Below, piece after piece: positions 2-47,234 of a stretch of DNA of 64,000 nucleotides. How positions within the stretch are numbered: the stretch's first letter is position 1; every line of letters starts with the position of its first letter. The translations under genes and the position numbers were made by a program. Origin of the DNA: Woeseiaceae bacterium (lineage in GTDB: Bacteria > Pseudomonadota > Gammaproteobacteria > Steroidobacterales > Woeseiaceae); the NCBI GenBank assembly GCA_021773035.1, contig JAJFKU010000052.1:134040-198039 (forward strand), written 5' to 3'. The notes under the pieces are model-generated. The model saw nothing but the letters and a program-made list of their open reading frames with translations, was not told the origin of the DNA and did not search any database.

Positions 2-331
2 ATGCAGGAAGCGACGACGCTGGTCGTCAATATCACGACGCGACAGGATGTCGGTCCGCGGCTTGCGTCGCAGCGCGACGAACTGTCGCGTCTTCTGAAA
101 CGTGCGGCTACGCCGTTGCCGGTGCAGCTCGTGTCGGATAATTTTACTGATGTCTCGGTCTACAGGATCGGTAGACTGGGCAACTTCACGAGAAAAGAAC
201 TGAACCTGCGCCCCGGAACCTATGTTGTCGTTGGGTCGCGACCCGGCTATCGCGACGTGCGGCTTGAGTTCCGGGTTGCCCCGGAAGAGGACATCGGGCC
301 TGTCGTTGTTCAGTGTGAGGAGAAGATTTGA
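2..331 (+). CDS. C-terminal part of a hypothetical PEGA-like protein (5' cut by window)
   Basis: The reading frame is open to the left edge, so this is most likely the tail of a longer protein and the ATG at base 2 is not necessarily its start. The visible 109 residues contain a short beta-rich stretch (KELNLRPGTYVVVGSRPGYR) that resembles a PEGA repeat, a surface-exposed beta module often found after membrane helices or kinase domains. The stop codon overlaps the TTG start of the next gene by 4 bases, so it is the first visible member of the vWA/FHA operon. The missing upstream part could be a kinase or another FHA/PEGA protein, but nothing in the window shows this. Confidence 0.6.
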   Translation: MQEATTLVVNITTRQDVGPRLASQRDELSRLLKRAATPLPVQLVSDNFTDVSVYRIGRLGNFTRKELNLRPGTYVVVGSRPGYRDVRLEFRVAPEEDIGPVVVQCEEKI

Positions 332-2754
332 GTTTCGACAAGCTGGTTATCAGGGATGTAGAGGGTGAGCGCCACTTTACACAGGAACAACTGCCACTGC
401 GTGTTGGCACAGGCGGTGACTGTCAGTTGCGATTACCAGGCCCTGGTGGCGAGCCGGTAGCGCTGCTGGACCTGCTCGATGGCCTGCCGATCGTGCAGCC
501 GGTCGGACGAAATACATCCCTGCACTTCAACGGTGCACCGCTTGAAGCAAGTCGTCGCCTCGTGGATGGTGACGTACTGCAGTTCTTCGGTAGCGAAATT
601 CGCTTCCACGTCGGCGACGACGGCGTCGCTGTCGACGTGCGGCTTGAGGACAGCGCCTATGTCACGCAGCCGCCGGAGGCGGCGGACGATGCCGATCGCC
701 CGGACGATGAATCAATCGCGCCAACCGCTTTTCGCCGCGCCGCCGCGAGCAGTGCGGCAAACCTTCAGTCCAGACGCAGTCCGCTGAAGATGATCGTTGG
801 GGGCGGGCTGCTGGTGTTGCTGTCGATGTCCTACCTGCTGTTCACGTCCAAATCGGTCGAGTTCGAGATCGATCCGGGACAACCGGACGCATTCGATATT
901 TCAGGCGGCTGGTTTCGCCTGCCCATTGGCGACCGGGTCTTGTTGCGCACGGGCAACTACACGGTAAACGTAGAAAAAGAGGGCTACTACGCCATTGGGC
1001 AGACTTTTGTTGTCGGCGATGAGCAGTCGATGACAGTGCGACTTAGGATGCGCAAAAAACCGGGTCGGCTGACGGTCGTTACCGAACCGGTTGTCGATGC
1101 GGTGGTTACTGTCGACAATTCTCTGGTTGGCAAGGCACCTTATGGCCCGGTAGAGCTTGAACCGGGCGAGCATACGGTGCGGGTTGAGTCGGATCGTTTT
1201 CTGCCGTTCAGCGACTTCGTCACGGTTACCGGACTGGATCAGCTCGAAAGCCTGCATGTGCAGTTAACCCCTCGCTGGGCGGAGGTCGAAGTCCGTTCGG
1301 AGCCGCCAGGGGCGGCGGTCTTTTCCGGCGATGACGAACTTGGCGTTACTCCGGCAACGGTGCAGCTAATCGAGGGTATGCATGACCTGACAGTGATCAA
1401 GGATGGTTTCAGTGCCTGGGACGGCAACGTCGTCGCCGTGCCGAACGTCGGTCAGACACTGCCATTGATTCGCCTGCAGCCAGCGAATGCGCGCCTGCTG
1501 GTGAATACCATTCCCCGCGGTGCGAACATCACGGTGAATGGTCGTTACCGCGGCCAGTCGCCAATGACATTGTCGCTATCGCCGGGTATCGACTACCAAA
1601 TCGGTATGTCGAAAGCGGGCTACGGTGTGACCAGTCGAAATCTTCGCCTGGAGTCTGCAGCGAGCGAAGCTATTACCGTCGATCTGTCCGCTCGCGTCGG
1701 TACGCTCACGCTGATTGTCGAGCCTGCCGATGCGACAGTCTATGTCGGCGGTCGCGCGCGGGGAACCGGCAAGACAATCCTGCGCCTGAGTTCCGCACCA
1801 CATCGTATTGAAGTTAAGCGTCAGGGGTTTCTTGACTGGTCGAGAACCATCACGCCGCGGCCCGGATATCCGCAAACGGTAACGGCTCAGCTCCGGTCGT
1901 TGCAGGCAGTTGCCCGTGACTCCGTTGCCAGAACAGCTGAGACTTCGGCCGGGCAGACGATGCGTCGTGTCGAGGGTGGCACTTTTTCAATGGGTGCGTC
2001 GCGCGCGGAAAACGGGCGTAGAGCCAACGAAGTTATTCGTCCGGTGACGATTTCGTCTCCTTTTCTGATTAGCGAGCATGAAGTCACCAACAAAGAGTTT
2101 GCGGAGTTTCGCAAGAACCACGATTCCGGTGCCGACGTGCACCCGGTGCTCGCCGCCGACGGCAATCCGGTTGCCAACGTGAGTTGGGCCGATGCGGTGC
2201 AGTACTGCAACTGGCTGAGCAAAAGGGAAGGTCGTACGCCAGCGTATAAACAGGAATTCGGTAAATGGGTTACCGTGTATCCGTTCACCGACGGCTATCG
2301 CCTGCCCACCGAGGCTGAATGGGCGTGGGCGATTCGCTATGCAGAGCGTCCCGTTCCGCGTAAGTTCCCCTGGGGTAAGGACTGGCCGCCACCAAAGGAG
2401 AGCGGTAACTACGCGGACTTGACAGCGCGCCAGCTGGTTCCTTCCATTATTCCCAAATTCGATGACGGCTATGCATCGACAGCGCCGGTCGGTAGCTTCA
2501 AAGCCAATTCACTGGGCATATACGATGGTGGCGGCAACGTCGCCGAATGGGTCAATGACTGGTATACCGTGCCGACGCCGGGAGTCACAGAACCGGTCGT
2601 CGATCCGACGGGACCCGTGCGCGGTAACAGCCATGTGATACGCGGTTCAAGTTGGCGTCATGCCGGCTTTACGGAGATGCGCTTGAGTTACCGGGACTAC
2701 GGTACCGATCCGCGGGTCGACCTCGGGTTTCGAATCGCACGCAACGTTGATTAA
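328..2754 (+). CDS. FHA - transmembrane - PEGA repeats - FGE/sulfatase-modifying-like protein
   Basis: This 808-residue membrane protein starts at TTG 328, overlapping the previous stop as TTGA. Residues about 1-110 look like an FHA phosphothreonine-binding domain (LPLRVGTGGDCQLRLPG, then RNTSLHFNG and DGDVLQFFG). One membrane helix follows at about 155-175 (MIVGGGLLVLLSMSYLLF), so the FHA domain should be cytoplasmic and the rest periplasmic. Residues about 180-540 hold several PEGA repeats (for example RGANITVNGRYRGQSP). From residue 545 there is a formylglycine-generating-enzyme/PvdO-like domain (VEGGTFSMGASR, YRLPTEAEWAWA, VAEWVNDWY, RGSSWRHAG, DLGFRIAR). I do not see the C-terminal cysteine pair of catalytic FGE, so it may bind or modify something else. 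It probably relays a cytoplasmic phospho-signal to the envelope part of the operon. Domain calls are secure; the role is inferred. Confidence 0.85.
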   Translation: MSFDKLVIRDVEGERHFTQEQLPLRVGTGGDCQLRLPGPGGEPVALLDLLDGLPIVQPVGRNTSLHFNGAPLEASRRLVDGDVLQFFGSEIRFHVGDDGVAVDVRLEDSAYVTQPPEAADDADRPDDESIAPTAFRRAAASSAANLQSRRSPLKMIVGGGLLVLLSMSYLLFTSKSVEFEIDPGQPDAFDISGGWFRLPIGDRVLLRTGNYTVNVEKEGYYAIGQTFVVGDEQSMTVRLRMRKKPGRLTVVTEPVVDAVVTVDNSLVGKAPYGPVELEPGEHTVRVESDRFLPFSDFVTVTGLDQLESLHVQLTPRWAEVEVRSEPPGAAVFSGDDELGVTPATVQLIEGMHDLTVIKDGFSAWDGNVVAVPNVGQTLPLIRLQPANARLLVNTIPRGANITVNGRYRGQSPMTLSLSPGIDYQIGMSKAGYGVTSRNLRLESAASEAITVDLSARVGTLTLIVEPADATVYVGGRARGTGKTILRLSSAPHRIEVKRQGFLDWSRTITPRPGYPQTVTAQLRSLQAVARDSVARTAETSAGQTMRRVEGGTFSMGASRAENGRRANEVIRPVTISSPFLISEHEVTNKEFAEFRKNHDSGADVHPVLAADGNPVANVSWADAVQYCNWLSKREGRTPAYKQEFGKWVTVYPFTDGYRLPTEAEWAWAIRYAERPVPRKFPWGKDWPPPKESGNYADLTARQLVPSIIPKFDDGYASTAPVGSFKANSLGIYDGGGNVAEWVNDWYTVPTPGVTEPVVDPTGPVRGNSHVIRGSSWRHAGFTEMRLSYRDYGTDPRVDLGFRIARNVD

Positions 2755-2808
2755 CTTTAGCGGTCAGAATACTTAACGTGGTCCTACGGACTGACAGGAG
2801 GTCCTGAT

Positions 2809-3069
2809 ATGAAACGATTACTATTGGCACTGTTGCTGACCACGGCGATGGTTGTCTGGGCGCAGGAAGAGTCGGCCGAAGAAGAGGCGGTGAGCGGCCC
2901 GGCTGCGGAAACGACAGGCGAGACTGTCGCTGATGAGGCAGCGGACGACGAATTCGACGATCTTGAACTGGACGGCAATGAAGATCACACCGAAGAGGAC
3001 GACGACGTATTCAAACCATCTGACGTTGTGTCCTATCAGCAATCCGTGCCGTTTCCGGTCGACATTTAG
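2809..3069 (+). CDS. small acidic exported protein of unknown function
   Basis: This gene encodes 86 residues and has a strong ribosome binding site (AGGAGG at 2796-2801) eight bases before the ATG. Residues 1-19 form a clean signal peptide (MKRLLLALLLTTAMVVWAQ, cleavage after WA). The mature part is extremely rich in Glu and Asp, has no cysteine and ends in a hydrophobic tail (SVPFPVDI). It sits between the FHA-PEGA-FGE gene and the MotA/TolQ-like gene in the same direction, so it is likely a periplasmic accessory of that complex. I recognise no family. The low-complexity acidic composition would suit cation or partner binding, but that is inference. Confidence 0.7.
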   Translation: MKRLLLALLLTTAMVVWAQEESAEEEAVSGPAAETTGETVADEAADDEFDDLELDGNEDHTEEDDDVFKPSDVVSYQQSVPFPVDI

Positions 3070-3096
3070 GTAGTAACGCCAAAAGAGTCTGCGCTT

Positions 3097-3897
3097 ATGA
3101 ATAAAAAGAACATTCCCGTTGAATTCGTTTTTCAACTTTTCGCTTTGATTATCGCCATTATCATCGTTCACGCGTTCTACGTTTCGGTCGTCAGGCCAAC
3201 GGCCGCGCAGGTTATTGAAGAGCAAAATATGCGGGCTGCCGCGGACCCCGATTTCGTGCGTGATCGCAGTGCCTGGGTGCTGATCAAAGACCTGGAGCAG
3301 GAGTCGTGCTTCATTCTGATGTTCTGGGCGCTGGCGATCATGGGTTATAAGGCGGTGAAAGTCAGCGGTGAACGACGTCTGCTCGAGGTTGACCTCGTAC
3401 CGGTCGCCGAGGGCATGCGCATATTGCCCGAAGATACGCGTGAGTTTGCGCGCCAGGTTCAGGCTCTCCCGGAGGATCGACAACAGATGTTGTTGCCCAG
3501 AGCATTGCTTAACGCGTTGCGCCGGTTCAGTTCGACGCGCAGCATTCAGGACGTCTCCAGCAGTACGCATACGATTTGTGAATCGGAAGCGGATCGGCTT
3601 GAATCCGAGCTATCGATGATTCGCTATATTTCCTGGGCTATTCCGTCGATCGGTTTTATCGGCACAGTACGCGGTATCGGTGAAGCGCTGGCGCAGGCGG
3701 ACAAAGCTGTGAAAGGCGACATCGCGGGTGTTACGCAGAGCCTCGGTGTTGCGTTTAACTCCACCTTCATCGCATTGCTCATCAGTATTTTTCTGATGTT
3801 TCTTGTGCATCAATTGCAGCTCATGCAGGAACGACTGGTATTCGACAGTGAAAACTACTGTGACGAAAAAGTCATTCGCCACCTGAAGGCTGACTAG
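3097..3897 (+). CDS. MotA/TolQ/ExbB-type proton channel family protein
   Basis: The product is 266 residues with helices at about 9-30, 70-86, 177-200 and 215-245. The last two carry the family signature: PSIGFIGTVRGIGEAL matches the G-x-x-GTV-x-GI turn before TM2 of TolQ/ExbB, and SLGVAFNSTFIALLISIF matches the final channel helix with its conserved Thr. The long cytoplasmic loop between helices 2 and 3 (about 90-170) is charged, as in TolQ. This family forms a pentameric stator around a dimer of one-helix proteins (MotB, ExbD, TolR). No ExbD, TolR or MotB gene lies nearby. The only one-helix candidates in the operon are the two vWA proteins, so I infer those are its partners. Confidence 0.85.
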   Translation: MNKKNIPVEFVFQLFALIIAIIIVHAFYVSVVRPTAAQVIEEQNMRAAADPDFVRDRSAWVLIKDLEQESCFILMFWALAIMGYKAVKVSGERRLLEVDLVPVAEGMRILPEDTREFARQVQALPEDRQQMLLPRALLNALRRFSSTRSIQDVSSSTHTICESEADRLESELSMIRYISWAIPSIGFIGTVRGIGEALAQADKAVKGDIAGVTQSLGVAFNSTFIALLISIFLMFLVHQLQLMQERLVFDSENYCDEKVIRHLKAD

Positions 3898-3910
3898 GAA
3901 CAACTAGACT

Positions 3911-5275
3911 ATGGGTCTGCTCGCGGCACATCTGAACGATGCTGGAATTCTACTCGTCAATGACGAGAGAATTTTGTATCGCGAGCCGGGGTTCGCTCTG
4001 CTGGAGGACGATCACCTGATCACCGGCACAGAGGCATACATCAGTGCCAGTCTGAAGCCGCGCCGAATTCAGAATCACTACTGGTCGGAACTGCATACAG
4101 AGTCGTTGCCCGATCGACGTTTTCACCACATGAGCGCGGCGGATCTCGTCAGCCATCAACTCGAGCAGATATGGAAGCGGGTTGCTGCGCCTGGCGACCG
4201 CTTGGCGATTGCTGTGCCGCCGTACATGTCGAACGAAAACCTGGGCCTGTTGCTGGGTATTGCCAGCGAGCTGCAGATTCCGATTGTTGCGATGACGGAT
4301 GCAGCGGTCTGTGCAACCCGTCGTCACTACGAGCATGCGGTTCCCGTACATATCGACCTGAGCCTGCACAGCAGCCTGTTGAGCCGGCTGATGCAGGAAG
4401 GGCAGGTCCAGGTGGATCGTACCGAGGTTATTGAGGACAACGGCTTGCTGGTATTGCACGATCGTTGGCTGAAGATCATTGCGGACGCGTTTGTTCAGCA
4501 ATCGAGGTTTGACCCGCTGCATACCGCCGAAACAGAGCAGGTATTGCGTGACAGTATTCCGGACTGGCTGGCGCAGGCTTCGAGATCTGCAACGGTGCCC
4601 CTGGCTGTCGAGTACCGTGGCGTCAGTCACCATGCCGAAATAGAGTCGCTGGAACTGGTAGCGGCGGCCGGGCCTGTCTATCAGGCAATCGTCAGCAGTC
4701 TGCGCGCGCTTTTTCGAGCCGAGGAAACACCTGCAATTCAGCTCTCGGACCGAGCAGCGCGCATGCCGGGGCTGGCTGACACGCTAAAAACGCGGGTCGG
4801 CGGCGAGGTCTTCCTGCTGGAGCCGGGCGCGACGGCACGTGGTTTGATAAAGCGCTGCCAGGCAGTGGAAAACGGCGCTGGCGTGACCTTGTCGCGGCAT
4901 CTGCCGTGGGATCAGGCACCGGTGACCGTCGAAAGCGGCCGCTCCGGCGGTAACGGAGGGCGGCCGACCCACCTGCTGCTCGGACACAAGGCCTATAATC
5001 TGAAAGGAGCGCCCCTCGTCATGGGGTCACAAGCGGCCGACAACGAGCGCTGGCTGGACCTGCAACAGGAAATGCCCGGTTTGTCACGGCGGCATTGTGT
5101 CGTCAGTGCGGAAAACGGCCAGTTCATAGTGACGGACCACAGTCGCTACGGCACATTTCTCAACGGTCACCGCATCGATGGTTCCGCCGTGCTGCAGATC
5201 GGCGATCTCATTCGCATCGGTACGCCGGGTTTCGAATTGCGGCTAATTTCAGCGGAGGATCAAAGTGGCTCGTAA
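3911..5275 (+). CDS. degenerate Hsp70/actin-fold protein with C-terminal FHA domain
   Basis: The product has 454 residues. The N-terminal part (about 1-310) reads like a divergent ASKHA ATPase of the YegD/Hsp70 type. It has a domain start GLLAAHLNDAGILLVNDER, an IAVPPYMSNENLGLLLGIA segment like the Hsp70 helix that follows the Pro loop, and VPVHIDLSLHSSLLSRL where the second phosphate loop belongs. The glycine-rich phosphate loops are poorly kept, so ATP hydrolysis is doubtful. The C-terminal 80 residues are a textbook FHA domain (PGLSRRHCVVS, then RYGTFLNGHRI and IGDLIRIG), with the Arg, Ser-Arg-Arg-His and Asn-Gly elements needed for phosphothreonine. No signal peptide is visible, so it should be cytoplasmic. 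It overlaps the next gene by 11 bases. Confidence 0.75.
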   Translation: MGLLAAHLNDAGILLVNDERILYREPGFALLEDDHLITGTEAYISASLKPRRIQNHYWSELHTESLPDRRFHHMSAADLVSHQLEQIWKRVAAPGDRLAIAVPPYMSNENLGLLLGIASELQIPIVAMTDAAVCATRRHYEHAVPVHIDLSLHSSLLSRLMQEGQVQVDRTEVIEDNGLLVLHDRWLKIIADAFVQQSRFDPLHTAETEQVLRDSIPDWLAQASRSATVPLAVEYRGVSHHAEIESLELVAAAGPVYQAIVSSLRALFRAEETPAIQLSDRAARMPGLADTLKTRVGGEVFLLEPGATARGLIKRCQAVENGAGVTLSRHLPWDQAPVTVESGRSGGNGGRPTHLLLGHKAYNLKGAPLVMGSQAADNERWLDLQQEMPGLSRRHCVVSAENGQFIVTDHSRYGTFLNGHRIDGSAVLQIGDLIRIGTPGFELRLISAEDQSGS

Positions 5276-6362
5276 ACGACGCTCCGGTGAGATGTTCAGC
5301 ATGTCGTTTCTCGACTGCATGTGCTGCGGATTTGGCGCTGTGATTCTGTTTTTCATGATCATCAACTCGCAGAGCAAGGTTACGCCGACCGATCAAACCA
5401 GGGCCCTGCAGGCGGAAACGAATCGTTTGCAGGTCGAGGTTCTGGAAGGCCGCAAGAACCTGGCTTTGGCCCGCACGTCGATCCAGAAACTGAAGACCGA
5501 GGACGAGGAGGCGAAAGACCAGATTTCGATTATCGAGGCGCTGATCGCAGAGCTCAAGGCCGAGCTCGCCAAGTACGATAAGGACACGCTGGCAAAGATC
5601 GAACATATCGAAAAACTGCAAAGCGACATCAAATCGCTCGAAGATGAGGTCAAGCGCTTGCTGGCGTTGAAGAAAGAACAGGACGAGGCCGGCCAGCGAG
5701 TACGTTCATTTAAGGGCGAAGGTGACCGCCAGTACCTGACAGGCCTTAAGCTGGGTGGCGATCGAACGCTGATACTGGTCGACCGTTCTGCCAGCATGTT
5801 GCACGAGACTATCGTCAATATCCTGCGTCGCAAGAACCTGCCGGAGTCCGAGCAGGTGTTGTCGCGCAAATGGCGCCAGGTTGTCGCCAGCGTCGACTGG
5901 CTGACGTCGCAGTTCAAGCCGGAAAGCGAGTATCAGATATACATGTTCAACAATACCGTCGAGCCAGTCCTCAAAGGAACTGACGGTTTGTGGTTAAAGG
6001 CGGACGATGGCGATCAGCTGGACGAGGCAGTCAGACAGCTGCGCCGCACGGTACCTAAGAACGGTACGAATATGCACGCGGCATTTCAGATCGTTCGGGA
6101 TATGAACCCACGGCCCGACAACGTTATTCTTCTGGTCGACTCCATGCCGACGATGGACGCGGAGACTTCGACGAAAGCCGTTATCGGCGGCAACGAGCGG
6201 CTGAACCTGTTTTACAACGCTTCGAAGCTGATACCGAGCGGTATTCCCGTCAATATCATGTTGTATCCCATGGAAGGAGACTCGCAGGCCGCCGTATCGT
6301 TGTGGGCGCTTGCGCTGCAGACCCGGGGTTCCTTCATCAGCGTCAGTCGCGACTGGCCATAA
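5265..6362 (+). CDS. membrane-anchored von Willebrand A protein 1, putative stator partner
   Basis: The 365-residue product starts at GTG 5265 behind GGAGG (5254-5258). It has a basic N-terminus (MARKRRSGEM), one helix at about 15-35 (SFLDCMCCGFGAVILFFMII), a long charged coiled coil at about 45-150 and a vWA domain at about 160-365. The metal-site motif is DRSASM (D-x-S-x-S), with a GTNMHAAF segment supplying the second-loop Thr. The topology is N-inside with the vWA domain periplasmic, the same as MotB, ExbD and TolR. Asp17 falls at the start of the helix, where those proteins have the ion-carrying Asp (for example PFIDVM in ExbD). It pairs with the paralogue encoded 12 bases downstream and with the MotA/TolQ-like protein upstream. 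Fold and topology are clear; the motor role is inference. Confidence 0.85.
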   Translation: MARKRRSGEMFSMSFLDCMCCGFGAVILFFMIINSQSKVTPTDQTRALQAETNRLQVEVLEGRKNLALARTSIQKLKTEDEEAKDQISIIEALIAELKAELAKYDKDTLAKIEHIEKLQSDIKSLEDEVKRLLALKKEQDEAGQRVRSFKGEGDRQYLTGLKLGGDRTLILVDRSASMLHETIVNILRRKNLPESEQVLSRKWRQVVASVDWLTSQFKPESEYQIYMFNNTVEPVLKGTDGLWLKADDGDQLDEAVRQLRRTVPKNGTNMHAAFQIVRDMNPRPDNVILLVDSMPTMDAETSTKAVIGGNERLNLFYNASKLIPSGIPVNIMLYPMEGDSQAAVSLWALALQTRGSFISVSRDWP

Positions 6363-6374
6363 GGGGGACGCAGC

Positions 6375-7367
6375 ATGGCCAGACAGAGAAGAGATATACA
6401 AGCATTCAGTCTGTCGTTTCTGGACTGCATTTGCTGTGGCTTCGGCGCCATTATCCTGCTGCTGGTGCTCAGTAAGATTTACGAGCCCGTCGTCGTCGAA
6501 GAAGCAGAGCAGGACTTACAACGTTTGATTGCCTTGTTGCAGGAGGAACTCTTCGAGATTCGCGGCACATCGACGATTCTCGACCGCACGCTTAAGAAAG
6601 TGAAGTCCGAGGAGCAGGCGACAAAAACCTATCTCGGTAAGGTCGAGGGCGAACTGAGTACGATCGAGGGCCAGTACAAGGCCAGCAAGGAAGAGGAAGA
6701 CGAAACCGTCGACATCGGCGAGTTGAGTGCAGCGCGGCAAAGATTGTCCGAGGAACAAAAGCGCCTGCGGCCCTACTACCGGAGACCGGATGCAGACGCC
6801 GTCGCCGGAATCCCCGTCGACAGCGAGTACATCATCTTCGTCATCGATACGTCCGGCAGTATGCTCGACAGTAGCTGGACGCTGGCGCAACGCATGCTCA
6901 GGCAAACGCTGGAAGCGTATCCAACCGTCAAAGGCATTCAGGTCATGAACGATGACGGCGTCTATATGTTCCGGGACTTTCAGTCCCGATGGATGCCGGA
7001 CTCGCCGGGGCGCAGGCGCGCCATCGTGTCCAGAATGCAAAGCTGGAACGCGACCAGTGACAGTAATCCGGTCAACGGTATCGAAGCCGCGATTCGCGAT
7101 TTCAGAGCCGACGACAAGAAGATCAGCATTTACGTCTTCGGCGACGACTACCAGGGGGTGCGCAACGTCGACTCCGCGATGGCCGCGATTGACCGTCTGA
7201 ACAGACCCGGTCCTAATGGCGAGCGCCTGGTGCGGATTCATGGCGTTGGATTTCCAGGTCGCTTCGGCAGCGACCGGATACCGGATACCGCGGGCAGTTT
7301 TGCAACCTTCATGCGCGCCGTGTGTGCCAGCAACGGCGGTACCTTCGTTGCGCTCAGCGGCGGCTGA
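6375..7367 (+). CDS. membrane-anchored von Willebrand A protein 2, paralogue of the preceding protein
   Basis: The 330-residue product starts at ATG 6375 behind AAGGGGG. The first 32 residues repeat the layout of protein 1 position for position: MARQRR, then SFLDCICCGFGAIILLL at residues 14-30, with Asp17 and Cys18, 20 and 21 all at identical positions. A coiled coil follows (about 40-130), then a vWA domain whose metal motif is canonical (FVIDTSGSMLDSSW). Outside these parts the two proteins have diverged, which suggests a heterodimer rather than a recent duplicate. It is the last gene of the operon, and a hairpin with the form of a terminator lies directly after the stop. Metal-dependent ligand binding in the periplasm is expected for the vWA domain; the ligand is unknown. 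Confidence 0.85.
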   Translation: MARQRRDIQAFSLSFLDCICCGFGAIILLLVLSKIYEPVVVEEAEQDLQRLIALLQEELFEIRGTSTILDRTLKKVKSEEQATKTYLGKVEGELSTIEGQYKASKEEEDETVDIGELSAARQRLSEEQKRLRPYYRRPDADAVAGIPVDSEYIIFVIDTSGSMLDSSWTLAQRMLRQTLEAYPTVKGIQVMNDDGVYMFRDFQSRWMPDSPGRRRAIVSRMQSWNATSDSNPVNGIEAAIRDFRADDKKISIYVFGDDYQGVRNVDSAMAAIDRLNRPGPNGERLVRIHGVGFPGRFGSDRIPDTAGSFATFMRAVCASNGGTFVALSGG

Positions 7368-7542: not shown

Positions 7543-8244
7543 ATGCGTAGTAGAAACTCAATTGCCATCATTGCAGTCCTGGCCTTATTCGCGCAAACGG
7601 CTTCGGCTGCGGCGTCCAAGGAAGAGAATATCGGTGTCGGATCCGGTGCCATTGTTGGCGCGCTTGCCGGTGGGCCGGTAGGTTTTATTATCGGTGCTGC
7701 CGTTGGCGCGAAGCTGGGCGAGAAGGCACATCTGAAATCGGAACGAATCGACAGCCTGCAGAGTTCCCTGCAGGGGTCGCGCCAATCGGTCGCGGATCTG
7801 GAGCAGGGCGTCGACGAACTGAATACAGAGGTCGAGCGCCTGCAGAACGTTGCCCGTCCGGAACTGGTCAGCCTTATGCAGGCCGGCATCGATATGGACC
7901 TGCTGTTTCGCACCGACGAGTTCGCACTGACCGATACCACCGGTGCTCGGCTGGCACAAATGGCCGGAACGCTCGCCAGTATGTCGGGTGTGAGGATTCA
8001 ACTGGATGGTTTTGCCGACGAACGCGGCAATGCCGAGTACAACCAGGGCCTGTCGGAGAAGCGCGTGGAATTTGTCCGCAATCTGTTTATCGCGGCAGGC
8101 GTACATCCCACTCGTATCAGCACGTCCGCGCATGGCGAGTCCGTCGCACAGGCGCCGGACACCGACAGCTATGCGCTGGAGCGCCGTGTTAGCGTGAAGC
8201 TGTTTATCGAAAACCCCCAGTCTCTGGCGTCAAACCCGCAGTAG
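7543..8244 (+). CDS. OmpA-family protein with glycine zipper, PdsO-like
   Basis: The 233-residue product starts at ATG 7543 behind GGAGG. It has a signal peptide (cleavage near TASAAAS, about residue 24), then a glycine-zipper helix (GSGAIVGALAGGPVGFIIGA) that should insert in the outer membrane. A short coiled coil (about 65-100) precedes a C-terminal OmpA/Pal-type peptidoglycan-binding domain. The domain shows the expected ligand motif (LDGFADERGNAEYNQGLSEK, with Asp and Arg for diaminopimelate). The order zipper, coil, OmpA domain is that of PdsO, the OmpA-like partner of the proteobacterial sortase system, but I see no sortase or target gene nearby. It may be a stand-alone member or tether the neighbouring vWA machine to the cell wall; the latter is speculation. 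Confidence 0.8.
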   Translation: MRSRNSIAIIAVLALFAQTASAAASKEENIGVGSGAIVGALAGGPVGFIIGAAVGAKLGEKAHLKSERIDSLQSSLQGSRQSVADLEQGVDELNTEVERLQNVARPELVSLMQAGIDMDLLFRTDEFALTDTTGARLAQMAGTLASMSGVRIQLDGFADERGNAEYNQGLSEKRVEFVRNLFIAAGVHPTRISTSAHGESVAQAPDTDSYALERRVSVKLFIENPQSLASNPQ

Positions 8245-8282
8245 CCAAGCAAATCCCTGTGACTCATTCCGAGTCTCCGCCT

Positions 8283-8312
8283 GGCCGGCCTGTAATGGGT
8301 CGGCCTTTTTTT
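8283..8312 (+). terminator. rho-independent terminator after the OmpA-family gene
   Basis: GGCCG (8283-8287) pairs with CGGCC (8301-8305), with additional C-C/G-G pairs inside, followed by seven T residues. It lies 39 bases after the stop codon and separates the OmpA-family gene from phhB. Confidence 0.75.
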
Positions 8313-8371
8313 GTGGCGATTTTTTTGGGTGGTTGATAGATTGGCCGTGTCTTTTCGGCCTCGGAACCAAC

Positions 8372-8719
8372 ATGTCAGATAATCTTGCGGACCGCCGTTG
8401 TAAACCCTGCGAGGGTGGCGTCGAGCCTCTGCGACCCGATCAATGCAGCGAGCTTATCAGAGCGCTGCACGCTGACTGGTCGTTGAGCGACGATGGTCTC
8501 GAAATATCGAGGACATTCGAGTTTTCCGCCTACAGCCGATCGCTGGCATTTACCAATGCGGTCGCATGGATAGCGATTGTCGAGGGCCACCATCCCGTGC
8601 TGACGGTGAGCTATGGATCATGCGTGGTGAGCTATACCACCCACGCGATCAATGGTCTGTCCGACAATGACTTCATCTGCGCAGCCAAAATCGATCGGCT
8701 TGCTGCGGCTGCGGACTAG
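8372..8719 (+). CDS. phhB: pterin-4a-carbinolamine dehydratase
   Basis: PhhB dehydrates 4a-hydroxytetrahydrobiopterin to recycle the cofactor of aromatic amino acid hydroxylases; some bacterial members act elsewhere in pterin metabolism. The product is 115 residues from ATG 8372. An in-frame GTG upstream at 8333 lacks family similarity. The signature is intact: SRTFEFSAYSRSLAFTNAVA, then IVEGHHPVLTVSYGSCVVSY, with the catalytic paired His of E-G-H-H-P, and a C-terminal THAINGLSDNDFICAAKID. No phenylalanine hydroxylase gene is in the window. Its stop overlaps the GTG start of the next gene by one base, so the two are co-transcribed. Confidence 0.92.
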   Translation: MSDNLADRRCKPCEGGVEPLRPDQCSELIRALHADWSLSDDGLEISRTFEFSAYSRSLAFTNAVAWIAIVEGHHPVLTVSYGSCVVSYTTHAINGLSDNDFICAAKIDRLAAAAD

Positions 8720-39640: not shown

Positions 39641-41518
39641 TTGCGACGAAATCGCTCCATAGCTAGTTTTCTGCGTTCGCTCCTTGTCCTGCTGGCATTA
39701 ACGATGCCGGCCGCACATGCGGCGAAAAGCGACAGGGAACCTATCGTCGTTCAGGACCCACAATACGGTGAGGTCCTGTTCTATTTTTATCAGGAAGACT
39801 ATTTTCCGGCGATCGTTCGTTTGCTGGCGGCACAGAATCAGCAACAGCTCAATGACCATGCCGAGGAAGCCGAGCTCCTGTTGGGTGGCATGTATCTCTC
39901 TTACGGTCACCACCTGGAGGCGGCCGCGATCTTCGAGCGCATGCTTGCCGATAACGTTTCGACAGACGTCCGTGATCGCACCTGGTTCTTCCTGGCAAAG
40001 ATATGGTACCAGCGTGGTTACCATGAAAAATCACAACAGGCACTGGGCTACATTGAGCAGGAGTTGCCGAAGAATCTGCAGCGCGAAGCACTTAATCTGC
40101 AGGCGCAGATTCTGATCGATGCCGGTGAATACGATCGAGCGATCGCATTGTTGCAAAACTGGAACGACAAAACAGAGTGGGCGAGTTACGCCAAGTTTAA
40201 TATTGGTGTTGCACTGGTCCGCAGTGGACGCGTTGCCGAAGCGCAGGAACTGCTCAGCGATCTCGGTAATCTGAATCCGTTTAATGAAGAACTGGCGTCG
40301 CTTCGCGATAAAGCCAACCTCGCCCTGGGTTACGCCTTGTTGCAGGACGACCAATCGCAGGCGGCAAAGGCGCCACTGCAGCGTGTTCGCCTGGAAGGCC
40401 CGTTTTCGAATAAAGCACTGCTGGGTGTCGGGTGGGCCGATGCCGAGATGGATAACTACCAGCGTGCGCTAGTGCCCTGGATGGAGTTACGCAGTCGCGA
40501 CCTGCTGGATTCGGCGGTGCAGGAATCGATGCTCGCCATACCTTATGCGATGGCCAAACTGGACTCGGTAAGTCAGGCGGCGGATCACTATCTGAACGCG
40601 ATCGAGGCGTTTTATGAAGAAGCGAATCGTCTGGACCGCACTATTGCTCATATTGAATCCGGCGACATGTTCGACGAGTTTTTGTCGGCGGATCCGCTCG
40701 ATAGTACCGGCTGGTACTGGCAGCTTACGGAGCTTCCGGAAGGACCTGAGGCTCGCTACCTGTTCCATCTTCTCGCAACCCACGAATTTCAGGAAGGTCT
40801 GAAAAACTATCGGGATTTGAACTACCTAAACCGCAACCTCGCGAGCTGGATGGATAGCATTGAGGTCTACGGCGCGATGCTTGAAACGCGTAAGGAAGCC
40901 TACGCTCAGCGCTTGCCACGCGTTGAGGGAGCACTCGCTCGCGCGGATTTGGACGGCATGGTCAACCGTAAGCTGGAATTCGATTCCACCTTAAATAACA
41001 TAGAAGAGGGCCGTGACTGGCTCGCGCTGGCTACCAAGACCGAGTTCGAGATGTGGGGCGAGATAACCGGCCTTGAAAATACGCCGGCGCTGCAGGCGGA
41101 TATTCCAGAAGCGGCTGAAGTGCTCGACAAGATTCGCTTGTTGAAAGGTGTGTTGCAGTGGCAGCTCGAGCGTGAGTTCAAGGACCGTCTGTGGCGCATT
41201 CGACGTAATCTTAACGACGCTGGTGAGGCGCTGGTGGCGACGCAGCGTTCGCGCCGGCAAATCGATGAGACGATACGTAACGAGCCGCTTAAGTTTGCAG
41301 AGTTTAGCGATCGTGTTTATGGCCTCGGGCCGCGCGTGCAAAGCGTTTCTTTACAGGTTGATGAGGCGCTTGCGAAACAGCGTGTCTTCCTGCAGGCGAT
41401 AGCTGTGGGAGAGCTGCAGGCGCAGAAACAGCGCCTCGATACCTATACTGTTCAGGCGCGGTTTGCGTTAGCGGCAATTTACGATGTCGCAGCGACTGCC
41501 GGGGAGGCGGTGCAATGA
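39641..41518 (+). CDS. exported TPR-repeat protein
   Basis: The product is 625 residues from TTG 39641, three bases after the previous stop. A signal peptide (SLLVLLALTMPAAHAA) precedes tetratricopeptide-like helix pairs in the first 310 residues (HHLEAAAIFERMLAD, EYDRAIALLQNWN, NYQRALVPWMEL). The second half is mostly helical with long coiled-coil stretches and no enzymatic motif. It is probably a periplasmic scaffold of the ExbB/ExbD complex. The gene overlaps the next TPR gene by ATGA, so their products are likely made in fixed ratio. Confidence 0.85.
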   Translation: MRRNRSIASFLRSLLVLLALTMPAAHAAKSDREPIVVQDPQYGEVLFYFYQEDYFPAIVRLLAAQNQQQLNDHAEEAELLLGGMYLSYGHHLEAAAIFERMLADNVSTDVRDRTWFFLAKIWYQRGYHEKSQQALGYIEQELPKNLQREALNLQAQILIDAGEYDRAIALLQNWNDKTEWASYAKFNIGVALVRSGRVAEAQELLSDLGNLNPFNEELASLRDKANLALGYALLQDDQSQAAKAPLQRVRLEGPFSNKALLGVGWADAEMDNYQRALVPWMELRSRDLLDSAVQESMLAIPYAMAKLDSVSQAADHYLNAIEAFYEEANRLDRTIAHIESGDMFDEFLSADPLDSTGWYWQLTELPEGPEARYLFHLLATHEFQEGLKNYRDLNYLNRNLASWMDSIEVYGAMLETRKEAYAQRLPRVEGALARADLDGMVNRKLEFDSTLNNIEEGRDWLALATKTEFEMWGEITGLENTPALQADIPEAAEVLDKIRLLKGVLQWQLEREFKDRLWRIRRNLNDAGEALVATQRSRRQIDETIRNEPLKFAEFSDRVYGLGPRVQSVSLQVDEALAKQRVFLQAIAVGELQAQKQRLDTYTVQARFALAAIYDVAATAGEAVQ

Positions 41519-44340
41519 CGGCCCGCCAGTCACTTCGTGCACTGACAGCGCTCTCGCTGCTGACGCTTGCAATGCCGGCGCTAAATGCGGCCGGCGTGAA
41601 GGAATCGGACACGATCAAGAGTCTCGAAAAGAAAGAGGTCCAGATTCGGCCGGGCAAAGTTATTCTGGGCAGCTCGGACCTGGCCCGCGATAACTACCGC
41701 GCGTTTCTGGATCTGGTCTCGGATGACCCGGAACTGCGGGCTGAAGCAATGCGGCGCTTGGGTGATCTCGAACTCGAGGCGACGGAAACACAGCAGCTGG
41801 CTGAGAATATAGACGCCCTGGACCAGGGCGGTTACAACAATGCAGTCAGTCTCTATCAGCAGCTATTGGAGGCGTATCCGGACTACCGCCGCAACGACAC
41901 GGTGCTTTACCAGCTGGCGCGGGCCTACGAAACCGGTGGCCGCACCGACGAAGCGCTCGAAGTACTCGACGAGTTGGTCGGCAAATTTCCGGACACGCCG
42001 CTCATCGACGAAGTGCAGTTTCGTCGTGGCGAGATGTTGTTCCTGCGAAAGCGCTACAACGATTCGGAGATGGCTTATAAGGTTGTCGTCGAATACGGCG
42101 ACGCGTCGCGTTTCTATGAGCAGTCGCTTTACAAACTCGGGTGGTCGCAGTTCAAGCTTGCCTGGCACGAAGAGAGTCTGAGCCCGTTTTTCGAGCTGCT
42201 TGATCGTAAGATCGGCGATATCGAAATCGACGAAGGCGAAGAGCGCCTGCAAAGCCTGAAACGCGCCGAACGAGAGCTTGTCGAGGACACCTTCCGCGTA
42301 CTCAGCATCAGTTTTTCCTATATGGATGGTGCGGCGAGTATCGATTCCTTTCTGGCGAGCCGTAACAACCCTCACTACAGCTATGCCATCTACCGGAATC
42401 TTGGCGACCTTTATCTCGAAAAACAGCGCTTTCAGGATGCGGCCGTTACCTACGAAGCGTTCGTTGCTCACGATCCCTATCACGCTAAAGCACCGTTGCT
42501 GCAGGTCGAGGCGATCGAGGCCTATAAACAAGGTGGTTTTCCCAGCCTGGTACTCGAAGGCAAAAAAGATTTCGTCGACCGCTATGGTATGGACGGAGAA
42601 TTCTGGGTACGCAATCCGCGCGCAGAGAACACGGAGGTTGCGGCACACCTGAAGGCGAACCTGACCGATCTCGCGCAGTATTACCACGCAGAAGCGCAAA
42701 AAGATGGCCAGAAGAGCGACTATCAGGAAGCGGCCAACTGGTATCGCAAATACCTGGCCTACTTTCCAGGCGAGGCGGACAGCGCGAATACCAACTTCCT
42801 GTTGGCCGAAATCCTGTTTGAGAGCGACGATTTTGAGGCGGCGACCGCTGAATACGAGCGAACCGCTTACGAGTACCCGACGCACGATAAGTCCGGGGAG
42901 GCTGGGTATGCGGCGATTCTGGCGTATCGCGAGCACGAGAAAAACCTGCAGGGCGCTGAGAAAGGCGCATGGCATAGCCTGTACCTCGACAGCGGCCTGA
43001 AGTTTGCCGATACCTATCCCGAACACCCGGAGTCCGGCGCGGTATTGACGACCGTTGCTGAAGACTTGTTTGCGCAAAACCAGTTTGATCTTGCGATTGC
43101 GGTCGGACAGGCGGTAGTAGCGAAACAACCGGCCGTTGACGTGAAACTCTCGCGAACGGCATGGACGGTTATCGCGCATTCTCAGTTCGACCTGAACAAT
43201 TTCGGCGAAGCGGAGGGCGCCTACTACCAGCTGCGAGGTTTTACTCCAGCCGATGACGTTGAGGCTGGCCAGGAGATCAAGGATCGCATCGCTTCGTCTA
43301 TTTACAAGCAGGGCGAGCAGGCGCGCGATAGTGGCGATCTGGAAACGGCCGTCACGCATTTCAGACGTCTCGGCCAGGCAGTGCCGGACTCCGATATTCG
43401 CGCGACGGCGGAATACGATGCGGCGGCGGCCCTGATTAATCTACAGGCCTGGGATCGGGCATCCGGCGTGCTTGAACAGTTTCGCGCGGATTACCCGGAC
43501 AGTGAGTTTTCGGATGACGTTACCCAGAAACTGGCCGTTACCTACCTGGAATCGGGCGATGCCGGGCGAGCGGCTGCTGAATTCGAACGTATCGCAGATG
43601 CTGAATCCAGCGACGCTGACGTACGCCGCGAAGCCTTGTGGAAGGCATCCGACCTATATAAGGACACGGGTGTCCTCGCCAGTGAACAACGGGTACTTAA
43701 CGCCATCTTGTTGCGCTACCCAAATCCGCTGGCGGAATCGATAGAGGCACGCTTCAGGTTGTTGGAGATAGCGCGCGAGCGCGGCAACGACAACGCGGTT
43801 ACAGAGCGTCTTCAGGAACTGGTTCAAGTCGATGCTACGGCGGGTGCACAGCGTTCGGACCGGACGCGTTTTCTGGCGGCAAAGGCATCGCTTGAATTGG
43901 CAGAACCGGTACGGCGTCGTTTCGAGGTCGTGAAACTCTCGCAGCCTTTGGCGAACAGCCTGAAGCTGAAAAAAGAACTGATGGAAGAGGTGATCGCTGC
44001 GTATACCGGAGCAGCCGACTACGGGGTGGCGGAGGTCACAACGGCGGCGACTTACCGTCTTGGTGAGGTATACCAGCAGTTCAGCACGGACCTCATGGGA
44101 TCCGACCGGCCTGCAGAACTGGACGCCGATGCACTTGAACAGTACGAAATTCTGCTCGAGGAACAGGCGTTTCCCTTCGAGGAGAAGGCGATCGACCTTT
44201 ATACAGCGAACGCCGCTCGGGCGCCCGACGGCGTTTACGATGAATGGGTTCAGCGAAGTTTTGAGCGACTGGCGGTACTGATGCCGGCGCGATACGCGAA
44301 AGAGGAGCGCAGTGAAGATGTCGTTACAGCGCTGTACTAG
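41515..44340 (+). CDS. large exported TPR-repeat protein
   Basis: The product is 941 residues from ATG 41515, overlapping the previous stop. The signal peptide ends near NAAGV (about residue 25). TPR-like repeats run through nearly the whole length (YNNAVSLYQQLLEAYPDYRR, RTDEALEVLDELVGKFPD, RFQDAAVTYEAFVAHDPYHA, DFEAATAEYERTAYEYPTHD, NQFDLAIAVGQAVVAKQP, DAGRAAAEFERIADAE). The repeat style (tyrosine and PD at the end of helix B) resembles BamD/CpoB and GldE-region TPR proteins of envelope machines. No catalytic motif is seen. A long antisense open frame inside it is a codon-bias artefact. Confidence 0.88.
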   Translation: MTARQSLRALTALSLLTLAMPALNAAGVKESDTIKSLEKKEVQIRPGKVILGSSDLARDNYRAFLDLVSDDPELRAEAMRRLGDLELEATETQQLAENIDALDQGGYNNAVSLYQQLLEAYPDYRRNDTVLYQLARAYETGGRTDEALEVLDELVGKFPDTPLIDEVQFRRGEMLFLRKRYNDSEMAYKVVVEYGDASRFYEQSLYKLGWSQFKLAWHEESLSPFFELLDRKIGDIEIDEGEERLQSLKRAERELVEDTFRVLSISFSYMDGAASIDSFLASRNNPHYSYAIYRNLGDLYLEKQRFQDAAVTYEAFVAHDPYHAKAPLLQVEAIEAYKQGGFPSLVLEGKKDFVDRYGMDGEFWVRNPRAENTEVAAHLKANLTDLAQYYHAEAQKDGQKSDYQEAANWYRKYLAYFPGEADSANTNFLLAEILFESDDFEAATAEYERTAYEYPTHDKSGEAGYAAILAYREHEKNLQGAEKGAWHSLYLDSGLKFADTYPEHPESGAVLTTVAEDLFAQNQFDLAIAVGQAVVAKQPAVDVKLSRTAWTVIAHSQFDLNNFGEAEGAYYQLRGFTPADDVEAGQEIKDRIASSIYKQGEQARDSGDLETAVTHFRRLGQAVPDSDIRATAEYDAAAALINLQAWDRASGVLEQFRADYPDSEFSDDVTQKLAVTYLESGDAGRAAAEFERIADAESSDADVRREALWKASDLYKDTGVLASEQRVLNAILLRYPNPLAESIEARFRLLEIARERGNDNAVTERLQELVQVDATAGAQRSDRTRFLAAKASLELAEPVRRRFEVVKLSQPLANSLKLKKELMEEVIAAYTGAADYGVAEVTTAATYRLGEVYQQFSTDLMGSDRPAELDADALEQYEILLEEQAFPFEEKAIDLYTANAARAPDGVYDEWVQRSFERLAVLMPARYAKEERSEDVVTALY

Positions 44341-44983
44341 GAAAACAAAGGGAATCATGGCACTGCTGGCGGCGCTGGCGCTTGCCGGATGTGCAGGGTC
44401 TGGCGCTCCGCGACCCGCTGCGGACGGTCGACAGGCTGATGCTCCGGATGCGACGGCCGACAGCGGCGAGTTGCTGCCCGACGTTCCCGCAGCGGTGCTG
44501 ACGATGTTTGAGCAGGCGACCGCATCGATGGCCGCGGGCGATTTTGTCGACGCTGAACTGCGATTCAAAGAGTTTTTGCTGCAGTATCCGGATTATCCCG
44601 GCGCCTATGTAAATCTCGCGATAATCCATTCGAGCAATGGCAACGATGCGGCCGCAGAGGCATCGATTGATGCCGCTTTGGCGCTACAGCCCAATCACCC
44701 CGCGGCTTTGAACCAATTGGGCATGCTACTTCGCAGAAATGGCAATTTTCTGGAGGCAGAAGCCGCTTATTTGAAGGCCGTCACAGTCTCGCCCGAGTAC
44801 GCCTTGGCACACTACAACCTGGGCGTTCTTAACGAACTCTATCTGCAGCGCCTGGATGTGGCGCTGCAGCATTTCGAGATCTACCAGTCTTTGGTTGGCG
44901 AAGATAAACAGGTCGCGAAGTGGATCACGGATCTGACGCGTCGCGTTGCGGCGAATCAGCGAACGGCAAACGTGGCGGAATGA
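44318..44983 (+). CDS. TPR lipoprotein
   Basis: The product is 221 residues from ATG 44318, ten bases after GAGGAG; a GTG at 44312 is too close to it. The signal sequence ends in a lipobox (LLAALALAGCAGSG), so the protein is a lipoprotein. After a disordered linker, three TPR units follow (FVDAELRFKEFLLQYPDYPG, NDAAAEASIDAALALQPNHP, FLEAEAAYLKAVTVSPEYAL). This is the layout of PilF/PilW-type pilotins, so it may deliver or assemble an outer-membrane part of the machine. It overlaps its neighbours at both ends. Confidence 0.88.
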   Translation: MSLQRCTRKTKGIMALLAALALAGCAGSGAPRPAADGRQADAPDATADSGELLPDVPAAVLTMFEQATASMAAGDFVDAELRFKEFLLQYPDYPGAYVNLAIIHSSNGNDAAAEASIDAALALQPNHPAALNQLGMLLRRNGNFLEAEAAYLKAVTVSPEYALAHYNLGVLNELYLQRLDVALQHFEIYQSLVGEDKQVAKWITDLTRRVAANQRTANVAE

Positions 44984-45450
44984 CGGACATGAATACTTGT
45001 ATAAAGGCAGTATTCGGCACCGGAGTCATGCTCGCCATGTTACTGGCAACGTTTGTCGCTTTTGCTCAAGAGGAGCTTGACGAGATCGGTCCGGCAGTGG
45101 ATACCTCTGCAATCGATGTACCCGAGGCGGATGCGGTTGATTCCGAGGATGCGATAGAGGAGATCGGTCCGGCGGTCGATACGTCAGCGACGAGCGATGA
45201 CATTACGCGCCGGACGACGGGTAATCGTGTAATGGACTCGATCGAGTTGGGTCGCACGGAGATAACGGGCAACCAGGAGTTGCCGAAAGTACTGTATATC
45301 GTGCCCTGGAAGAAAGCGGATCCGGGGGACTTGATGGGAAAACCCGTCAACACACTGCTCGATGAGGTGCTGGCACCGATCGACAGAGAAGAGTTTATTC
45401 GGCAGGTCGACTACTACGACGATCTGTACGGCGAAAGTGAAAAAGAGTAA
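44980..45450 (+). CDS. small exported acidic protein with an internal repeat
   Basis: The product is 156 residues from ATG 44980, overlapping the previous stop as ATGA. The signal peptide (cleavage after VAFAQ, about residue 28) is followed by two exact copies of EIGPAVDTSA at residues 35-44 and 61-70, then a conserved-looking C-terminal half (GNQELPKVLYIVPWKKADPG). I recognise no family. Position before the ExbB gene suggests an accessory of the complex. It is also acidic, like the small exported protein of the vWA operon, though the sequences are not alike. Confidence 0.75.
   Translation: MTDMNTCIKAVFGTGVMLAMLLATFVAFAQEELDEIGPAVDTSAIDVPEADAVDSEDAIEEIGPAVDTSATSDDITRRTTGNRVMDSIELGRTEITGNQELPKVLYIVPWKKADPGDLMGKPVNTLLDEVLAPIDREEFIRQVDYYDDLYGESEKE
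45082..45189 (+). repeat. two 30-base copies encoding EIGPAVDTSA
   Basis: The copies at 45082-45111 and 45160-45189 are in frame, 78 bases apart, and encode identical peptides while differing at several synonymous sites. That means the peptide, not the DNA, has been conserved. Confidence 0.8.
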
Positions 45451-45503
45451 GAGCGGTTTCTACCGCAAAATGAACAAGTGACTGTTTTTAGAGGAGCAGA
45501 CAA

Positions 45504-46145
45504 ATGAGCACTATCGTGCGGTTTTTTCAGGATGGCGGAGCATTCATGATCCCTATCCTGTTGGTGTTTGGTTTCGGCGTCGCGATCGCGATCGAGCGCT
45601 GGACCTACCTGACGATGTCGGGTGCAAGCAATCGTGCTTTGTGGAAGAAAATCGTGCCTTTCCTGAAGGCCGGAAACTTCCAGGAAGCGGCGCAGCACAC
45701 GGCGAAATCCAAGGCAGCTATCGGTTCGATTCTGACCTACGGCCTGTACCGAGTTAAATCGGCCCGCCGTCGCGACGATATCGAGAAGGCAATGGAAGAA
45801 AGCCTGATGGAAGTATTGCCGCGACTTGAAAAGCGTACGCACTATATAGCGACGCTCGCCAACATCGCGACGCTGCTCGGGCTGCTCGGAACGATTATCG
45901 GCCTGATTGCTGCGTTTACCGCGGTTGCCGAGGCAAATCCCGCCGATAAGGCGGATATGTTGTCCGCATCGATCTCCACCGCGATGAATACCACGGCATT
46001 CGGGCTGATGGCGGCGATTCCGTTGCTGCTGATTCACGCTCTGCTGCAGACAAAGACCAATGCGCTGGTTGACAGCCTCGAAATGGCCAGCGTCAAGTTT
46101 TTGAATGCCGTTACCGAACGTCAGCTGAAGACGTCCGGAGCGTAA
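45504..46145 (+). CDS. ExbB/TolQ-type proton channel protein
   Basis: The product is 213 residues from ATG 45504 behind GAGGAG. It has one helix at about 12-32 (AFMIPILLVFGFGVAIAIER) and two at about 118-145 and 160-185 (IATLLGLLGTIIGLIAAFTA, then STAMNTTAFGLMAAIPLLLI). The G-LLGT-xx-G-I motif and the conserved Thr of the last helix identify the family. It forms the channel pentamer that, with the two ExbD proteins downstream, uses the proton gradient to drive the TonB-like protein. This is the standard order ExbB-ExbD-ExbD-TonB-like. Confidence 0.93.
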   Translation: MSTIVRFFQDGGAFMIPILLVFGFGVAIAIERWTYLTMSGASNRALWKKIVPFLKAGNFQEAAQHTAKSKAAIGSILTYGLYRVKSARRRDDIEKAMEESLMEVLPRLEKRTHYIATLANIATLLGLLGTIIGLIAAFTAVAEANPADKADMLSASISTAMNTTAFGLMAAIPLLLIHALLQTKTNALVDSLEMASVKFLNAVTERQLKTSGA

Positions 46146-46148
46146 GCG

Positions 46149-46676
46149 ATGATGCGTAGCCGCAGAGGCGGCCGACGTCAGAACGACGATACGGCTGAAC
46201 TCAACATCACGGCGTTTATGAACCTGATGGTTATTCTGGTTCCGTTCCTGCTTATTACCGCGGTGTTCTCGCGATTGGCAATTCTCGAATTGAACTTGCC
46301 AGGCTCCTCTACTGAGCCCGTGGAACCGCAGGATCAGGTATTCCAGCTAGAGGTTATCGTTCGATCGGACAAGATCGAGGTCGGTGACCGTAATCAGGGT
46401 CTGCTGGGTATCTACCCGAATACCGAAGATGGCTACGACTTCGACGCTGTCGGCGAAAAACTTGTGCAGCTGAAGGAGCGCTATCCGGACAAGACGGACG
46501 CGTCCATTCTGCTGGAGCAGGATATTGCCTACGACACACTGGTACAGATCATGGATACCGTTCGTGTGTCTGTCGACATCGAGACCGATGAGGACAACGA
46601 ACCAAGCCTTGTGCGCTCCGATCTGTTTCCTGATATCTCGATCGGCGATGCACCGGTCCTGGCGGGAGGTGCCTGA
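46149..46676 (+). CDS. ExbD/TolR-family protein 1, with Asn replacing the conserved Asp
   Basis: The product is 175 residues from ATG 46149 (or the adjacent ATG 46152). The layout is a basic cytoplasmic tail, one helix (NLMVILVPFLLITAVFSRLA) and a periplasmic ExbD domain. In E. coli ExbD the helix begins PFIDVMLVLL, with Asp25 essential for proton transfer. Here the aligned text is AFMNLMVILV and residue 25 is Asn (codon AAC at 46221). So this subunit should not carry protons itself. It stays membrane-anchored and presumably pairs with the second ExbD. The stop shares one base with the next start. Confidence 0.9.
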   Translation: MMRSRRGGRRQNDDTAELNITAFMNLMVILVPFLLITAVFSRLAILELNLPGSSTEPVEPQDQVFQLEVIVRSDKIEVGDRNQGLLGIYPNTEDGYDFDAVGEKLVQLKERYPDKTDASILLEQDIAYDTLVQIMDTVRVSVDIETDEDNEPSLVRSDLFPDISIGDAPVLAGGA

Positions 46677-47203: not shown

Positions 47204-47234
47204 TGCGCACGGACGACGTTTAGGAGTCACGGAA

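Follow-up and report, generated by a model that had tools for sequence, protein, structure and literature searches.

What kind of machine is encoded by an operon that joins a MotA/TolQ/ExbB-type channel to two vWA proteins? The question is raised by positions 328–7367 of a 64,000-nucleotide stretch of DNA from a Woeseiaceae bacterium with a genome of 5.4 Mb (positions 134,040 to 198,039 of contig JAJFKU010000052.1; hereafter the window), where six genes lie on the plus strand. The original prediction, made from the letters alone, read them as an undescribed ion-driven stator in which vWA proteins stand in for the usual channel partner. The open reading frames (ORFs) and the Pfam matches agree with the six genes named there, the channel included; the observation is real, the locus is very conserved, and its main point was rightly read. 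We consider it probable that the operon, which proves larger than these six genes, encodes a phosphorylation-controlled ion motor that has an axle of the two vWA proteins, vWA1 and vWA2, and acts on the outer envelope.

The case for a motor begins with the channel (3097–3897; MotA_ExbB, E 2.4e-14) and the two vWA proteins, vWA1 (5265–6362; VWA_2, E 4.7e-8) and its paralogue vWA2 (6375–7367; VWA_2, E 0.0012). Pfam calls are quoted above the curated cut-off, except for that of VWA_2 in vWA2, which falls below it. Both proteins share one layout, a helix with D17, a coiled-coil-like stalk and a vWA domain, and each has, as predicted, a single hydrophobic helix (residues 15–33 in vWA1, 13–31 in vWA2) with the motif S-F-L-D-x-x-x-C-G-F-G. 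D17, the Asp proposed for the ion-carrying position, is invariant in both families (162/162 vWA1 rows and 158/158 vWA2 rows), as are T190 and T223, the putative ion-path residues of the channel (154/154 rows). These rows are the window and those retrieved loci whose gene spans 80% or more of the profile, and comprise 155 (vWA1), 152 (vWA2) and 150 (channel) distinct sequences. When the channel profile is aligned with TolQ (8odt), residues 150–257 fall on 105–212 without a gap, so that T190 lies on residue 145 and T223 on residue 178; both are Thr, and we take both to be ion-path residues of TolQ. The helix of an ExbD protein from the window's own genome (locus L175) starts T-P-M-L-D, comparable to S-F-L-D in the vWA proteins, and among eight ExbD loci read in one orientation the three readable N-termini have Asp twice and Asn once at this position.

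The MotB/ExbD-like topology that was proposed for the vWA proteins includes a coiled coil; along the stalk, heptad periodicity is equalled by 11 of 1000 shuffles in vWA1, a modest signal, and by 98 of 1000 in vWA2, a weak one. The stalks are 115 and 108 residues long, or 17.1 and 16.0 nm when fully coiled, and the periplasm is about as wide as a stalk of 16–17 nm is long. That the two stalks are of nearly the same length and that one paralogue seldom occurs without the other (vWA2 accompanies vWA1 in 161/167 loci) suggests that vWA1 and vWA2 form a hetero-dimer. The metal site is well kept in both heads: in vWA1, D173 is found in 153, S175 in 162, S177 in 160, T268 in 146 and D292 in 162 of the 162 rows, and in vWA2, which retains the DxSxS motif, D158, S160, S162 and D257 are each found in 158/158.

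The channel and vWA genes travel together. In a class-wide draw of 369 genomes, vWA1 homologues occur in 31 at E <= 1e-10; the channel family gives 37 matches at E <= 1e-20 in the same genomes, 31 at 260 bits or more and six at 79–106 bits, and the 31 genomes with strong channel matches are exactly the 31 with vWA1 (hypergeometric p ~8e-46, with kinship ignored). Failure of these genes to co-occur had been named beforehand as grounds for refutation; they were found in the same genomes. We note that one of the 31 (G374, locus L200) has internal stop codons in the channel and vWA1 frames, reflecting decayed genes or assembly errors. Near the weaker channel genes lie a vWA-like ORF of 47.6 bits with a PP2C-like ORF of 32.5 bits (L248), a vWA-like ORF of 19.6 bits 4 kb off (L246) and a PP2C-like ORF (L249), so, to judge by these matches, distant kin of the system may exist.

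Gene neighbourhoods were compared in sets of vWA1 loci drawn by order (20 loci), name (80), class (28), Verrucomicrobiota (15), phylum (13), Desulfobacterota (2) and genus (9). These sets share genomes, the named set consists of the top 80 among 578 loci, which gives near relatives more weight, and a gene was scored absent only where a locus has sufficient upstream DNA. The channel shares the locus of vWA1 in 155/158 cases and elsewhere in the genome in the misses: for L122 and L206, from one genome, it is on another contig (L207), adjoining the Hsp70-FHA and FGE proteins described below, and for L195 (G271) it is likewise on another contig. At L191 and L194 the channel gene is 3′ of vWA2, with linkage retained. 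Outside the Verrucomicrobiota set, the PEGA/FGE protein is present in 129/129 loci, a kinase in 117/117, the lipoprotein in 107/110 and the Gly-rich protein in 104/105, the last being a soft count because its profile is compositional. The Hsp70-FHA protein is present in 130/163 loci of all sets (2/13 in the phylum set, 0/2 in Desulfobacterota and 11/15 in Verrucomicrobiota). Since the other genes are widespread but sometimes missing, we take the channel, vWA1 and vWA2 to be the core.

A core of this kind has been proposed before. PMC12204202 (Mol Biol Evol, June 2025, msaf138; section 8) reports that two families of vWA proteins are encoded close to motor genes. The second, 'TPH-vWA', was found from Idiomarina loihiensis and occurs in Proteobacteria and Verrucomicrobia, in tight co-occurrence with tolQ homologues and with no adjacent tolR or exbD. 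Its members come mostly as heterologous pairs with a TolR-like helix and a conserved Asp, alongside the channel Thr, and AlphaFold 3 models place their helices inside the channel pentamer. By this description our operon, with its TolQ homologue, paired single-helix vWA proteins, lack of adjacent tolR/exbD, and Asp and Thr residues, appears to belong to the same family. The claims that the system was undescribed and that no known motor uses vWA arms are thus contradicted for the channel/vWA core, whose central inference was already in print as a prediction. The predicted co-occurrence was found, and the link to phosphorylation is supported. The main text of PMC12204202 mentions no kinase or FHA domain (its lone 'fha' being FhaC), and the lipoprotein with a weakly TolB-like fold was not found in it either. 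In the open literature searched, no paper describing the wider operon, with its kinase/phosphatase/FHA module and weakly TolB-like lipoprotein, was among the matches listed, and the passages searched of PMC7159879 do not describe it. The kinase/phosphatase/FHA switch and the outer-envelope parts look newly described.

To the left of the window the operon extends for a further ~6.7 kb, over a DNA stretch (L009) that encodes STK1, a Ser/Thr kinase with zinc ribbons (L009:12821–14107), a PP2C phosphatase (L009:14100–14954), a Gly-rich protein with a lipobox that is a putative lipoprotein (L009:15086–16153), a 411-residue putative lipoprotein (L009:16169–17404) and STK2, a second Ser/Thr kinase (Pkinase, E 1.7e-30) with one transmembrane (TM) helix (residues 311–329) and weakly matched TPR repeats (TPR_2). 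STK2 runs on the plus strand from L009:17418, some 2.1 kb left of the window, to window position 331, overlapping the start of the PEGA/FGE gene at 328. By ORF coordinates, adjacent operon genes overlap or are at most 54 bases apart, with the exception of 131 bases between the PP2C and Gly-rich genes. A search for a Ser/Thr kinase left of base 1, which the original prediction had proposed as a check, thus found two kinases and a phosphatase within the same operon, in keeping with the proposed link to Ser/Thr phosphorylation. A distantly related arrangement is seen at L253 (1984–8076; genome G1006, a helix-like match only), where a channel gene (99 bits) accompanies a 232-residue protein that has an LSMLD helix but lacks a vWA match, a separate protein with vWA and FHA domains, and a PP2C with a peptidoglycan-binding domain. 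Rearrangement of the same themes favours a real tie between motors of this kind and phospho-signalling.

The likely reader of such signals is the protein encoded between the channel and vWA1 (3911–5275, plus strand), which has a C-terminal FHA domain (E 2.9e-13) and had been guessed to be Hsp70-like. Its structural model (pLDDT 90.9, pTM 0.87) matches DnaK and other Hsp70 proteins best (E 1.9e-16, ~12% identity), supporting that guess and predicting the nucleotide-binding-domain fold of Hsp70; at the sequence level, too, its profile hits a DnaK chain (E 0.0021). Its loops were compared with the glycine-rich phosphate-loop motifs of Hsp70, which are not kept (family consensus LALELNDAGI and LHLDLxLHxxxLT), and because of this degeneracy the protein is taken for a scaffold.

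The remaining plus-strand genes encode candidate envelope parts. The product of 328–2754 has a TM helix (residues 155–173), five stretches of PEGA repeats (E 1.2e-40) and an FGE-fold domain (FGE-sulfatase, E 6.6e-42), which bears out most of its reading as a membrane FHA-PEGA-FGE protein. The FHA part is weak: Pfam gives no FHA match in the window's own copy, 2 of 10 homologous N-termini reach FHA (best E 0.00076), and a profile of these N-termini reaches Ki-67 chains (E 0.0014), from which we judge the head to be FHA-like and divergent. This head is lineage-specific, several other lineages lacking it. The small, very acidic protein (2809–3069), identified by composition (25 D/E and 3 K/R within 86 residues), has a hydrophobic N-terminus and is probably exported, as had been proposed. 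The 411-residue lipoprotein has no match in Pfam, NCBIfam or PDB sequence searches; the copy of the window's strain does not match the strict lipobox pattern, and the Cys is nearly invariant across the family. Among the 21 best fold matches of a modelled homologue (L069; pLDDT 82.7) are 17 TolB chains, two LptE and two UvrC, and the predicted fold is weakly TolB-like.

Taken together, these parts would form a trans-envelope motor of the 5:2 type in which two different vWA proteins replace the ExbD/TolR/MotB dimer. The channel pentamer would enclose one vWA1 helix and one vWA2 helix (5:1:1), and ions, probably H+, would cross between Asp17 of the helices and the ring of Thr190 and Thr223, turning the helix pair. 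The ~16–17 nm stalk would pass this motion to the vWA heads. Their metal sites would grip a ligand, for which the operon's acidic exported protein and its lipoprotein with the TolB-like fold are candidates, and force would thereby be brought to the outer membrane or wall. At the cytoplasmic end, phosphorylation of Thr would be governed by the kinases and PP2C and recognised by the FHA domain of the Hsp70-fold protein, switching or anchoring the motor. A more specific version, which we offer tentatively and think may well not hold, is one more force-transmitting machine that spans the envelope, alongside Ton and Tol; it would have a vWA1/vWA2 hetero-axle, be phospho-switched through a degenerate Hsp70-FHA adaptor and pull on an outer-membrane lipoprotein that carries a TolB-like domain. 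Should the proposal be correct, rotary 5:2 motors would serve another envelope task, with axle heads that carry metal sites in place of wall or TonB coupling and with a built-in kinase/phosphatase/FHA switch. To the vWA-motor prediction of 2025 the operon adds further parts, among them a candidate target at the outer membrane and a candidate system of control, each of which is testable in cultured carriers of the operon: Steroidobacter agaridevorans, Steroidobacter gossypii, Peristeroidobacter agariperforans and a Microbulbifer strain.

Several observations weigh against a phosphorylation-controlled vWA-axle motor. The profile match of the channel to TolQ is weak (E 0.039), the vWA1 and vWA2 helices have no family-level match to ExbD in Pfam (PF02472), and the likeness of the lipoprotein to TolB is only a lead, since all fold matches stay above E 0.001 and have low TM-scores. 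Mean-field direct coupling analysis of two sets of paired sequences (144 and 140; effective numbers 72.6 and 71.7) was uninformative: 16 and 19 of the top 60 pairs join the helix to channel TM3/TM4, with ~12 expected, an excess that we set aside as evidence because the strongest within-channel pairs are unlike contacts. The FHA domains, as we read them against the usual consensus, have lost some of the customary binding residues. Finally, among 13 loci of the Verrucomicrobiota set, the PEGA/FGE protein is present nearby in 2, a kinase in 4, and the lipoprotein and the Gly-rich protein in 1 each, so kinase and lipoprotein are dispensable for the core.

The last of these observations bears also on the possibility, which we regard as unlikely, that the operon encodes a sensor or ion-conducting signalling complex, in which the state of the envelope is sensed by the vWA heads and signalled to the kinases by opening of the channel, with no mechanical work. 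The kinases, PP2C and FHA proteins of the operon fit such a complex, and ligand binding is plausible for PEGA/FGE and vWA domains. Against it, Verrucomicrobiota loci mostly retain the channel and vWA pair without nearby kinases, and every characterised relative with this ion path that we know of does mechanical work.

A second alternative, which we think improbable, keeps the motor and changes its axle: an ExbD or TolR encoded elsewhere would sit in the channel, with the vWA proteins binding the outside of the motor as TolA and TonB do. ExbD genes are indeed present elsewhere in 30/30 tested genomes and in the window's own, and PMC12204202 sets another vWA family at the motor's edge. The family at issue here, however, is reported there to lack the SHLS motif, and its helix Asp is invariant, as expected of an axle. 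As had been predicted, the operon has no ExbD, the nearest on the contig being ~39 kb away; among the 30 genomes none lies within 7 kb on the contigs examined, many of them short, and the nearest, in three genomes of one genus, lie at 7.7–8.9 kb, which tells somewhat against an axle of vWA proteins.

An anti-phage system like Zorya is a reading to which we give almost no credence, and we discard it together with any mobile-element origin: the channel weakly matches ZorA (16.9 and 15.5 bits) and STK2 weakly matches kinase models of defence systems (among the best 25 of 33 matches), but the other six proteins tested match no Zorya partner model, no vWA1 match turned up in 72,556 plasmid records, 50,697 phage records or viral contigs, a DNA search of E. 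coli genomes for the vWA genes gave no match either, and the presence of vWA1 in 36/36 congeners and 19/23 others of the order is not patchy.

Likenesses to characterised machines are partial. With ExbBD and TolQR the system shares the channel family, the Thr positions and a single helix with an Asp close to its beginning, but it has a vWA head in place of the ExbD/TolR fold, two different partner genes and a kinase module. With MotAB and PomAB it shares a long TM2–TM3 loop in the channel and a weak profile match to MotA (8gqy, E 0.71), whereas its axle proteins have no peptidoglycan-binding OmpA domain by Pfam, an OmpA protein being encoded by a separate gene (7543–8244). The motor adjoins an FGE-fold protein as GldLM adjoins GldK/N of gliding and type IX secretion, and GldK is the best NCBIfam match of the FGE domain; this match is at 100.6 bits against a cut-off of 350, the FGE family is broad, and no type IX genes are seen in the operon. 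Kinase, PP2C and FHA on an envelope machine recall the PpkA/PppA/Fha pathway of type VI secretion, and the FHA domain of 3911–5275 weakly matches TagH (31.8 bits against a cut-off of 120), but no secretion genes are seen in the operon and the machine is a MotA-type channel. From Zorya it differs in that no Zor protein beyond ZorA is matched.

The system is a standing part of the genome in one genus and is present in records named for five phyla. Among 60 relatives, vWA1 homologues occur in 56, with G009 of the same genus holding fragments only and G046, G049, G050 and G059 having no vWA1; the closest named relatives of the window are Woeseiaceae and further gammaproteobacterial metagenome-assembled genomes (MAGs). 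At E <= 1e-10, vWA1 was found in 15/398 genomes of a Pseudomonadota draw (window's genome counted), in 4/198 of a phylum draw around a Desulfatiglandales locus (one helix-only), in 1/199 around an Acidobacteriota locus (the centre itself) and in 15/194 around a Kiritimatiellae locus (centre counted). Six loci from the named scan carry acidobacterial names and one (L100) a Myxococcales name, and some MAG names are doubtful, one locus (L135) being labelled Klebsiella pneumoniae. Two genomes of one family (G043 and G056; L059 and L060) carry a second, divergent operon copy that lacks Hsp70-FHA and whose vWA1 is ~30% identical to that of the window.

Two further features of the window lie outside the operon. 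A second motor cluster (41515–48188) has an ExbB-like gene (45504–46145) and two different ExbD-like genes, the first of which (46149–46676) has Asn where the second (46676–47203) has the helix Asp; by eye, it also encodes two TPR-like repeat proteins and a TonB-like proline-rich protein, together with an acidic exported protein. Immediately 3′ of the operon (7543–8719), the OmpA/glycine-zipper protein, which is near PdsO (121 bits against a cut-off of 152), is followed by a pterin dehydratase gene; within the same group, many relatives have this pair after the operon, and elsewhere fewer do.

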